This document shows, in pieces, positions 1,224 through 3,966 of a stretch of 5,712 nucleotides of DNA. Each line of letters opens with the position of its first letter. The first letter of the stretch is position 1. The translations under genes and the position numbers were made by a program. The notes beneath the pieces are model-generated. The model was not told where the DNA came from. It did no database searches and saw only the letters and a list, made by a program, of their open reading frames with translations. The stretch is from contig JALWSI010000130.1 of the NCBI GenBank assembly GCA_027080315.1, positions 1 to 5,712 of the forward strand, in the 5' to 3' direction. This DNA comes from a bacterium. GTDB taxonomy: Bacteria; Thermosulfidibacterota; Thermosulfidibacteria; Thermosulfidibacterales; JALWSI01.

Positions 1224-1244
1224 TATAAATAACAATATCAATAA
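1224..1244 (-). promoter_or_regulatory. Possible degenerate DnaA-trio run upstream of dnaA
   Basis: Reading the minus strand away from the perfect DnaA box, the triplets from 1244 down to 1224 are TTA, TTG, ATA, TTG, TTA, TTT, ATA, every one with a central T. DnaA-trios have the form 5'-NTA-3' on this strand sense, and four of these seven match exactly. The gap from the box (about 18 bases) is long for the known arrangement, and AT-rich DNA produces such runs easily, so this is only a secondary candidate. Confidence 0.25.
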
Positions 1245-1248
1245 TTTA
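1237..1248 (+). repeat. Copy 1 of a 12-bp element shared with the dnaN leader
   Basis: ATCAATAATTTA occurs here and again, identically, at 2721-2732. This copy ends 14 bases before the perfect DnaA box at 1263-1271. Both copies are in non-coding origin-like DNA on either side of dnaA. Confidence 0.6.
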
Positions 1249-1262
1249 CAAATACAGGTTTC

Positions 1263-1271
1263 TGTGGATAA
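1263..1271 (-). promoter_or_regulatory. Perfect consensus DnaA box
   Basis: TGTGGATAA on the + strand is the exact reverse complement of TTATCCACA, the consensus high-affinity DnaA box. It ends 28 bases before the dnaA start codon, so DnaA bound here is well placed both for origin function and to repress its own transcription. Confidence 0.85.
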
Positions 1272-1299: not shown

Positions 1300-2652
1300 A
1301 TGGATAAGAGTGCCTACAACGAGGTATGGAAAAGGGTCCTTGATAATCTGAGAGATGATATATCAGAAAAAAGTATAAAAACATGGCTCAATCCAATAAA
1401 GGTGTGTGAGGCATCTGAGGGGAGACTCATTCTTGAGGTACCAAACAAATTTTACAAGGACTGGATAAGGGAAAACTACGAAACAGCAATAAGGGAAAAA
1501 CTCAACGGTATCCTCAACTCTAACACCAAAATAGAGTACACAATCTCTAAGCACAGAGAAGAACCCTTGCCTGACAGGAACGCTTTTGAAGATAGAAGGC
1601 CATACACAGGAAAAAACAGCTATCCAGGCTCAACCCTCAACCCAAAGTATTCCTTCTCAACCTTTGTGGTTGGTCCAGGAAACCAGTTTGCCCATGCCGC
1701 CTCTCTGGCAGTCTCCCAGAACCCTGGCAAAATATACAATCCACTATTCATTTATGGAGGGGTAGGCCTTGGAAAGACACATATACTGAACGCCATAGGA
1801 AATGAGATAAAAGAAAACAAACCTAACCTGAACGTTGTGTATGTATCGGCAGAGTTTTTCGTGAACGATCTGGTAAGCTCAATCAGGAACGAAAACATGG
1901 GAAGCTTCAGGGAAAAATACAGAAGAGCAGATGTTTTGCTAATTGACGATGTACAGTTCATAGCGGGCAAAGATAGAACCCAAGAAGAGCTATTCCACAC
2001 CTATAATCAGTTATACAACGAGAATAAGCAGATAGTTTTAACCAGCGACAGGTATCCAAACGAGATGAGCGATGTTGAAGAAAGGCTAAGATCAAGGTTT
2101 CAATGGGGTCTTGTGGCAGACATACAGCCCCCAGACCTTGAAACCAGAATAGCCATTCTCATGAAGAAAGCAGAAGCAGAAGGAGTAGAACTACCCTACG
2201 AGGTAGCTGAATACATTGCAAAGAGAATACGCTCCAACGTTAGAGAGTTAGAAGGATGTCTCATAAGGCTATGCGCCGTGTCATCCATCACAGGATCCCC
2301 CATAACCCTTGAGACCGCTCAAAACGTAATAAAGAGGCTCTTTCCCAACTCCTTAGAAGAGGAGCTGTCAGTTGAAAAGATAATCCAAGTGGTGGGAGAC
2401 CACTTCTCCGTAAAACCCTCTGAAATAAAGTCAAGGAAGAGAACAAAGAACATAGCAATGGCAAGACAGGTTGCCATGTACCTTGCCAGAAAACTCACAA
2501 CCCATTCTCTACCAGAAATAGGTGAAAAGTTTGGTGGAAAAGACCACACGTCAGTGATATACGCTACCAAAAAGGTGGAAAAGATGTTAGAAGAGTCTGA
2601 ACAACTCAGGGAGGCTGTGAAAAAGATAGAGGATAGATTAGACACCCTTTAG
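1300..2652 (+). CDS. dnaA: Chromosomal replication initiator protein DnaA
   Basis: DnaA is the AAA+ ATPase that binds DnaA boxes, opens the origin and helps load the replicative helicase. At 450 residues it is of normal length. Domain I (about 1-85) is the protein-interaction domain and is followed by a short linker to about residue 115. The AAA+ domain III shows Walker A GGVGLGKT (153-160), Walker B LLIDDVQF (213-220), sensor 1 around TSDR (248-251), the arginine finger in RLRSRFQWGL (Arg 266) and sensor 2 in RSNVRELEG (Arg 315). Domain IV (about 353-450) has the basic SRKRTKNIAMARQ segment and the box-recognition signature GGKDHTSVIYATKKVE (412-427). All key residues are present. The N-terminus MDKSAYNEVWKRVLDNL fits the usual DnaA start. 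A perfect DnaA box lies just upstream, suggesting autoregulation. The coding strand is rich in A and C, unlike dnaN next door. Confidence 0.98.
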   Translation: MDKSAYNEVWKRVLDNLRDDISEKSIKTWLNPIKVCEASEGRLILEVPNKFYKDWIRENYETAIREKLNGILNSNTKIEYTISKHREEPLPDRNAFEDRRPYTGKNSYPGSTLNPKYSFSTFVVGPGNQFAHAASLAVSQNPGKIYNPLFIYGGVGLGKTHILNAIGNEIKENKPNLNVVYVSAEFFVNDLVSSIRNENMGSFREKYRRADVLLIDDVQFIAGKDRTQEELFHTYNQLYNENKQIVLTSDRYPNEMSDVEERLRSRFQWGLVADIQPPDLETRIAILMKKAEAEGVELPYEVAEYIAKRIRSNVRELEGCLIRLCAVSSITGSPITLETAQNVIKRLFPNSLEEELSVEKIIQVVGDHFSVKPSEIKSRKRTKNIAMARQVAMYLARKLTTHSLPEIGEKFGGKDHTSVIYATKKVEKMLEESEQLREAVKKIEDRLDTL

Positions 2653-2664: not shown

Positions 2665-2715
2665 ATGTCACAAAGCATCCAAACTCCACACAAAAAGCAC
2701 ACAGAGATTTCGTAA
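2665..2715 (+). CDS. Putative 16-residue leader peptide or micro-ORF
   Basis: ATG at 2665 opens a 16-codon frame, MSQSIQTPHKKHTEIS, ending in TAA at 2713-2715. It starts 12 bases after the dnaA stop and has a GGAGG Shine-Dalgarno at ideal spacing, better than that of dnaA itself. It matches no family I recognise; it is hydrophilic, with Lys/His in the middle, and has no membrane segment. It is in the dnaA frame, separated by the TAG. Its first three residues, MSQ, equal those of DnaN, so it could be a remnant of an older dnaN start, a coupling leader that keeps ribosomes on the mRNA, or a chance ORF. The initiation signal is clear; a functional peptide is unproven. Confidence 0.35.
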   Translation: MSQSIQTPHKKHTEIS

Positions 2716-2720
2716 TATAG

Positions 2721-2732
2721 ATCAATAATTTA
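2721..2732 (+). repeat. Copy 2 of the 12-bp element shared with the dnaA leader
   Basis: ATCAATAATTTA is identical to 1237-1248 and in the same orientation. It ends 6 bases before the DnaA box at 2739-2747. An AATAT string lies shortly upstream of this copy (2714-2718), and another overlaps the start of copy 1 (1234-1238). Confidence 0.6.
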
Positions 2733-2738
2733 GAGTAA

Positions 2739-2747
2739 TTCTCCACA
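2739..2747 (+). promoter_or_regulatory. DnaA box next to the trio run
   Basis: TTCTCCACA differs from TTATCCACA at one position. It points toward the DnaA-trio run that begins 13 bases downstream, which is the polarity expected for a box that loads a DnaA filament onto the trios. A second, much weaker box-like sequence (AAAATCACA, 2747-2755, 5 of 9 matches) lies between the two. Confidence 0.65.
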
Positions 2748-2759
2748 AAATCACAGTCC

Positions 2760-2777
2760 TTACTACTACTGTTATTT
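2760..2777 (+). promoter_or_regulatory. DnaA-trio run (basal origin unwinding element)
   Basis: The triplets TTA-CTA-CTA-CTG-TTA-TTT follow one another in register. On the complementary strand they read 3'-AAT-GAT-GAT-GAC-AAT-AAA-5', and four of six fit the 3'-(G/A)AT-5' DnaA-trio motif exactly. The run is preceded by a GC-richer stretch and a DnaA box in the right orientation, and followed by AT-rich DNA. DnaA is known to assemble on such single-stranded trios to open the duplex. The run ends just before the dnaN ribosome binding site. Confidence 0.65.
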
Positions 2778-2778
2778 T

Positions 2779-2785
2779 AGGAGGT
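2779..2785 (+). promoter_or_regulatory. Ribosome binding site of dnaN
   Basis: AGGAGGT, a full anti-Shine-Dalgarno match, lies 5 bases before the ATG at 2791 and fixes that start. It directly abuts the trio run, so the predicted unwinding site and the dnaN translation signal share the same DNA. Confidence 0.9.
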
Positions 2786-2790
2786 AAAAA

Positions 2791-3966
2791 ATGAGTCAGT
2801 TAGTAATAGAAAAAGGTTACCTTATAAAAGGATTATCAATTTTAGAGGGAATAACCGGTGGTAAACACATAAATCCCATTTGTGGTTCTGTGTTGTTTGA
2901 AACCAAGGACGACAGGTTGTTCTTAAGGGCTACAAACCTTGAGGATAGCATAGAAACGCAGATTCCCTTAAAACATTCTGATTTTGATGGAAAATTTCTG
3001 GTTTTTGGGCAACAGTTTCTTGGATTTGTAAAAGAGCTACCAGATGAAGAGATCACTTTGATTCTTGATGATAACTCTTCAACACTCTCTATTGTCTCAA
3101 GCAATCCTGAAGCTGTTATTTCTCTGATACCTATTGATGAGTTTCCGGCTTTGCCAACCGCTCCAGATAATGGAGAGCTAATTCCCATACCAGCAAGTGT
3201 CTTTTTAGAATTTATTGAAAAAACAGCATTCAGCACATCTTCAGAGCATGAATCAAGGGTCCTGTACGGAATAAACCTTGTTGTTGAAGGAGAGGTTTTA
3301 AAAGCCACTTCAAGCGATGGATTTAGATTTTCAAGGTATCAAAGCAAGATATATGCCGGGGCTAACATCTCTTGGTCTGCAGTTATTCCAAAGAGAAGGG
3401 CTTTGGACATGAAGAGGATAGTATCTTTGCTGTTCAATAAGGACGAAGAGGTTCTGATTGGGAGTACAAACAACCACTTCTACCTTGGTTCAAATAATCT
3501 GTCTATCTTTTCAAGAACCATAGACGACGAATATCCAGATTATGAGAGCATAATTCCAAGCGACTTCACAAGAGAGATTTTAACTGAAAAGAGCAGCCTT
3601 ATTCAGGCAATAAGGAGGGTGTGTCTATTCTCTTCTGAGAAGAGTGGAGGGGTGAAGATACAGTTTGATCCTGAAGGAAAACAGATTCACCTGAGCTCTC
3701 TAAGGTATGTTGATGAGCCTTTTATAGGAATGGCCTCAGAGAGTCTCTCTTTAGAGGATGCCTCTGGAGATCCCGTCACAATTGGTTTGAACTACAAAAG
3801 TGTGTTAGAGTGCTTGTCGGTTTTGAGAGGAGGTACTGTGCGGTTGGAATTTGGAGACTCTTTGTGGCCGGTGCGCTTCACCTCTGATGAGGATGAGGGA
3901 TTTTACCATATCCTCATGCCAATTCAGCTTGATGAGATAGAGGGAGATAACAAAGAAGGAGAATAG
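2791..3966 (+). CDS. dnaN: DNA polymerase III sliding clamp (beta subunit)
   Basis: DnaN forms the ring-shaped dimer that tethers DNA polymerase III and other partners to DNA. At 391 residues it is somewhat longer than the roughly 366-residue E. coli protein. Clamp landmarks in order: TNLEDSIETQIP (48-59) in domain 1; VLYGINLVVEGEVLKATSSD (157-176), where the family usually has ATDGHRLA; VIPKRRALDM (198-207); TIDDEYPDYESIIP (243-256); NYKSVLECL (334-342); and MPIQL (376-380), matching the MPMRL that ends E. coli DnaN and lines the client-binding cleft. An 11-residue acidic tail follows that motif. Several motifs are off-consensus, but the three-domain order is intact. The start is fixed by a perfect ribosome binding site. 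gyrB follows after 8 bases, so the two are probably co-transcribed. The coding strand favours T and G, opposite to dnaA. Confidence 0.96.
   Translation: MSQLVIEKGYLIKGLSILEGITGGKHINPICGSVLFETKDDRLFLRATNLEDSIETQIPLKHSDFDGKFLVFGQQFLGFVKELPDEEITLILDDNSSTLSIVSSNPEAVISLIPIDEFPALPTAPDNGELIPIPASVFLEFIEKTAFSTSSEHESRVLYGINLVVEGEVLKATSSDGFRFSRYQSKIYAGANISWSAVIPKRRALDMKRIVSLLFNKDEEVLIGSTNNHFYLGSNNLSIFSRTIDDEYPDYESIIPSDFTREILTEKSSLIQAIRRVCLFSSEKSGGVKIQFDPEGKQIHLSSLRYVDEPFIGMASESLSLEDASGDPVTIGLNYKSVLECLSVLRGGTVRLEFGDSLWPVRFTSDEDEGFYHILMPIQLDEIEGDNKEGE
3956..3961 (+). promoter_or_regulatory. Probable ribosome binding site of gyrB inside the dnaN tail codons
   Basis: AAGGAG lies in the last codons of dnaN, 13 bases before the gyrB ATG, which is long spacing. 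A shorter AGGT at 3969-3972 is only 2 bases from the ATG. With dnaN ending 8 bases before gyrB, translation of gyrB is probably coupled to that of dnaN. Confidence 0.45.

Follow-up and report, generated by a model that had tools for sequence, protein, structure and literature searches.

A predicted basal unwinding system between dnaA and dnaN, abutting the dnaN Shine-Dalgarno sequence, in an uncultured bacterial order

Where replication begins, and whether its onset is entangled with expression of the DNA polymerase III beta clamp, are the questions raised by the dnaA-dnaN spacer (2653-2790, 138 bp) of the window, by which we mean the whole stretch of DNA analysed. It is an entire contig (C130, 5712 bp) of a 1.84-Mb draft genome in 253 contigs, with the gene order DUF763 - dnaA - dnaN - gyrB. 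A first-pass annotation had proposed a basal origin unwinding element at the end of this spacer, and its coordinates for the box, spacer, trios and Shine-Dalgarno sequence all proved correct on re-reading the sequence. The spacer is 66% A+T and the first 60 nt of dnaN are 72% A+T, the latter bearing out the value given earlier for the first dnaN codons. An Rfam scan of the window yielded no match, and scans for promoters and terminators gave no excess over shuffles. The spacer also contains a 16-codon ORF (MSQSIQTPHKKHTEIS, 2665-2715) with a strong Shine-Dalgarno sequence, which begins 12 nt past the dnaA stop and has a dnaN-like start (MSQ). No counterpart is evident in the dnaA-dnaN spacers of relatives; this ORF is possibly a leader peptide or the relic of a duplicated dnaN start.

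Read towards dnaN, the element consists of a strong DnaA box, a weak one, a short gap and a run of DnaA-trios that ends directly at the Shine-Dalgarno sequence (Table 1). The complement of the trios, which is the strand that would be bound, reads 3'-AAT GAT GAT GAC AAT AAA-5'. The interval between the strong box and the trios is AAATCACAGTCC (2748-2759, 12 nt). Its 'GC-richer CAGTCC' lies where the first-pass annotation placed it but makes more sense as the end of the weak box followed by GTCC. The resulting 4-nt gap between weak box and trios recurs in other dnaA-dnaN spacers, and the corresponding gap averages 4 bp in the published set of basal unwinding systems, or BUS (PMC8287927). The Shine-Dalgarno sequence ends six bases ahead of the dnaN ATG.

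Table 1. Features of the window, and the motif that takes the place of the DnaA box in relatives
Feature	Position	Strand	Basis or remark
Perfect DnaA box TTATCCACA	1263..1271	-	Box upstream of dnaA also kept in f2-family relatives
dnaA (initiator)	1300..2652	+	Pfam PF00308, PF08299, PF11638; alignment to B. subtilis DnaA 8btg
Least stable 100 bp of contig (likely unwinding region)	2713..2813	.	Nearest-neighbour energies, z -3.2
Upstream (strong) DnaA box TTCTCCACA	2739..2747	+	1 mismatch vs TTATCCACA
Imperfect inverted repeat, box TCTCC pairing with Shine-Dalgarno GGAGG, 10-nt loop CCTTACTACT	2740..2784	+	
Downstream (weak) DnaA box AAAATCACA	2747..2755	+	4 mismatches; shares one base with strong box TTCTCCACA
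GC-richer short gap GTCC	2756..2759	+	Sequence
Six DnaA-trios TTA CTA CTA CTG TTA TTT = TTACTACTACTGTTATTT, in register	2760..2777	+	Sequence
dnaN Shine-Dalgarno TAGGAGG (AGGAGG from 2779), immediately 3' of last trio	2778..2784	+	Sequence
dnaN (DNA polymerase III beta clamp)	2791..3966	+	Pfam PF00712, PF02767, PF02768
GGGATTTACA	L035 4079-4088; L036 8834-8843; L037 10276-10285; L039 16151-16160; L045 7163-7172		f2 genomes

We re-implemented the published BUS search (PMC8287927), which asks for a box with at most two mismatches to TTATCCACA, a spacer of 0-16 bp and at least three consecutive NAN trios on the bound strand; a second co-oriented box with up to four mismatches is usual but not required. 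Here the strong box has a single mismatch, the spacer is 12 bp long and there are six such trios, four of them 3'-(G/A)AT-5', while the second box lies at the four-mismatch limit for the weaker member of a tandem pair. The 2739-2777 element is the only plus-strand site of the window that qualifies and the best candidate overall, the minus-strand sites having at most one YTA trio each. In the published survey, a BUS was predicted in 1755 of 2070 bacterial origins (85%), tandem boxes were the commonest arrangement (57%) and spacer lengths peaked at 10-13 bp (PMC8287927). By these values the predicted element is typical.

A BUS also calls for a DnaA with the residues of the trio-binding motif. 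Across the ATPase domain, the alignment of the window's DnaA with its B. subtilis counterpart (8btg) has no gaps. In 8btg the trio strand is contacted by E183, N187, I193, R202, K222 and E228, all six identical in the window's protein and invariant at the equivalent positions across the order alignment, and by I190 and N196, which are replaced by V and E.

As for conservation, we compared eight genomes of the same order, belonging to families other than the window's own; DnaA is 53-56% identical in three relatives, the GenBank MAGs QMPS01000055, WFSL01000022 (Aquificota) and JAJSAC010000073 (Thermodesulfobacteriota). In the five genomes of family f2, CTACTATTACTA occurs exactly once per genome, always in the dnaA-dnaN spacer and 24-25 nt ahead of dnaN, and CTACTACTA is found in the same spacer of an f3 genome. 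The box has fared differently: in the five f2 genomes GGGATTTACA, 16 nt upstream of the trios, replaces the canonical DnaA box, and the dnaA-dnaN spacers of f3 genomes have no clear DnaA box beside the trios. At order-level distance, the conservation proposed as a check on the element therefore extends to the trios, kept in the same place, but not to the canonical box. Four f2 genomes retain TTATCCACA immediately ahead of dnaA. We considered GGGATTTACA as a genome-wide alternative box; with just 1-9 copies per relative genome, the count is not decisive. Four loci (L103, L105, L112 and L031) harbour inverted trio copies, TAGTAGTAA, between the trios and dnaN, which create strong inverted repeats (z -2.0 to -3.1) and are possibly opposite-strand trios, or hairpins.

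Is the origin itself located here? At fourfold-degenerate sites, T:A counts are 27:65 in DUF763, 36:66 in dnaA, 55:53 in dnaN and 106:47 in gyrB. The first two genes differ from the last two (p=6e-10); DUF763 and dnaA do not differ (p=0.44), and dnaA against dnaN alone gives p=0.026. Since the skew of dnaA matches that of DUF763 and not that of dnaN and gyrB, the switch is placed after dnaA. G/C skew at fourfold sites of the contig's genes has no such clear switch. The cumulative keto-skew minimum of the contig is at position 2878, as drawn on a single 5.7-kb contig of the draft rather than on a whole chromosome. In four further contigs of the order the minima are at 36269 (120-kb piece, spacer 36069-36215), 26939 (80-kb piece, spacer 27098-27260), 9359 (spacer 8746-8908) and 10351 (spacer 10193-10349). 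In 5/5 contigs the minimum thus comes no farther than about 0.6 kb from the dnaA-dnaN spacer; for the GC and AT components taken singly, the scatter reaches about 4 kb in some of the five. Finally, the least stable 100 bp of the contig cover the box, the trios, the Shine-Dalgarno sequence and the dnaN start. Three motif-independent tests (T/A skew, keto skew and duplex instability) place the origin between dnaA and dnaN by composition. The location at the chromosome origin that a BUS calls for is likewise given by composition, through the window's own T/A switch and the keto-skew minima of the four relatives.

The region upstream of dnaA deserves consideration as the principal unwinding site (1190-1271), with the dnaA-dnaN element as the accessory part of a bipartite origin. 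It has the perfect box, the least stable 30 bp of the window (1224-1254) and a trio-like run with two mismatches, TTATTGATATTGTTATTT, at 1227-1244 on the minus strand; bipartite origins are also known in B. subtilis and Clostridioides difficile, though melting there takes place at the dnaA-dnaN part. We rank this arrangement second but consider it unlikely: the run begins 18 nt from the box and fails the published BUS rules, the fourfold-site skew switch comes after dnaA, and relatives have no trios upstream of dnaA. The most likely role of the perfect box is to autoregulate dnaA or to serve a second subregion of the origin. Two 13-nt arms, GTTTTTTACATGT at 1203-1215 and ACTTGTAAAAAAC at 1271-1283, form an inverted repeat that brackets this box and an A+T-rich stretch upstream of dnaA. 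In the whole genome (G000) there are 57 copies of TTATNCACA, and the reversed control has 28; the surplus boxes are scattered rather than clustered.

The first-pass annotation had further suggested that, with melting in the dnaN leader, initiation could disturb or control clamp expression and vice versa. That the element lies in the presumed dnaN leader is a fact of the sequence. Among 69 dnaA-dnaN spacers of at least 60 nt, 36 have a box and at least three YTA trios, and in these the distance from the last YTA trio to the dnaN start is shortest in the window (16 nt; next 18, median 50), in a sample that is uneven (many Syntrophaceae) and has automatically predicted start codons. Most other origins with a box-trio element have it 30-60 nt from dnaN. 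In a genome from outside the order (L013), whose locus showed no dnaA directly upstream, the trio run stops 11 nt short of dnaN. The packing is the extreme of a continuum and not a separate kind. The literature search found no report of trios overlapping the dnaN ribosome-binding site. Counting TACT-N-GGAGG-N-ATG over 386 genomes, as a measure of trios beside ribosome-binding sites, was far too loose to be informative. Tight packing by itself does not establish interference or regulation between initiation and clamp expression. In B. subtilis the two are already known to be linked through transcription, because overproduced DnaA represses the dnaA-dnaN operon and DnaN is depleted (PMC6669920).

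The leader also contains the imperfect inverted repeat of Table 1 (TCTCC..AAAAT.ACAGT-loop-ACTGT.ATTTT.GGAGG), in which the UCUCC of the DnaA box arises from the box's one departure from consensus. It is tempting to speculate that the stretch has a double role, as the site opened by DnaA in the DNA and, in the leader RNA, as a structure in which the UCUCC masks the dnaN Shine-Dalgarno sequence, but we regard this as improbable. Still less probable is that the stretch is chiefly such an mRNA hairpin and the trios incidental. The UCUCC-GGAGG stem folds at -10.4 kcal/mol as RNA (z about -2; DNA z about -3), with the second lowest z of the 36 box-plus-trio spacers. Yet its rank among GC-matched 50-mers of the contig is a modest 33/599 in a post hoc test, the repeat having been noticed after the fact, and relatives keep the trios but not the hairpin, their leaders folding no better than shuffles. 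The repeat is modest and may be due to chance.

That the trios are a chance run of TTA/CTA triplets in this A+T-rich spacer is barely credible, as the same kind of motif in the same place in relatives already contradicts it and the counts go against it: the exact six-trio pattern matches the window only at 2760-2777, and shuffles give 0.03 matches even at two mismatches; CCACA-N6..18-YTAYTAYTA has two matches in the 1.84-Mb genome, one being the dnaA-dnaN site, and none for the reversed control; and 0/400 Markov-simulated 5.7-kb windows reach a box (at most one mismatch) with as many YTA trios.

Support for a basal origin unwinding element is good: it fits the published search rules, and skew, duplex instability, the relatives and the DnaA residues point the same way. 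Its anatomy, its departure from chance, the origin position from strand composition and the retention of the trios in relatives are demonstrated. Against it count the non-conserved canonical box beside the trios and the V and E at the I190 and N196 equivalents. We put at roughly 0.87 the probability that the element is the BUS of the chromosome's oriC, and DnaA-dependent strand separation there is predicted by analogy. DnaA would bind the tandem boxes (2739-2755) and, if B. subtilis is a guide, an ATP-DnaA oligomer would extend from 2760 towards dnaN along the trio-bearing bottom strand, adjacent protomers each capturing two bases of the 3'-GAT-5'-type trios as the duplex melts. The opening would then spread into the A+T-rich dnaN start, where the helicase would be loaded.

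The incC BUS of B. subtilis (DnaA-box#6/7 and DnaA-trios; PMC6669920, PMC10721633) likewise lies between dnaA and dnaN and, compared by arrangement and not base by base, shares tandem co-oriented boxes followed by 3'-GAT-5'-type trios heading towards dnaN. Unlike incC, the window has a weak downstream box, trios that abut the dnaN Shine-Dalgarno sequence, and a 138-bp spacer without a cluster of further strong boxes. The predicted BUS set (PMC8287927) has in common with it the box, spacer and trio rules, the tandem arrangement and the 10-13 bp spacer peak, and differs from it in the window's very short distance to dnaN. C. difficile oriC2 (PMC7561715) also has a trio followed by an unwinding region in the dnaA-dnaN spacer, with a second subregion upstream of dnaA; its unwinding was demonstrated in vitro, whereas that of the window is predicted. 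No characterised origin from the window's lineage was found in the literature searched.

This kind of element is known and widespread, and the window holds a well-formed example, unusual only in its near-overlap with the dnaN ribosome-binding site. Through it the range of the BUS comes to include an uncultured order, for which the nearest named genomes carry the labels Aquificota and Thermodesulfobacteriota. The retention of the trios across much of the order, while the adjacent box changes, provides natural variants for asking which part DnaA needs. The locus is also a compact case of an origin and a clamp leader overlapping, and the double role, if true, would tie clamp synthesis to the origin element.
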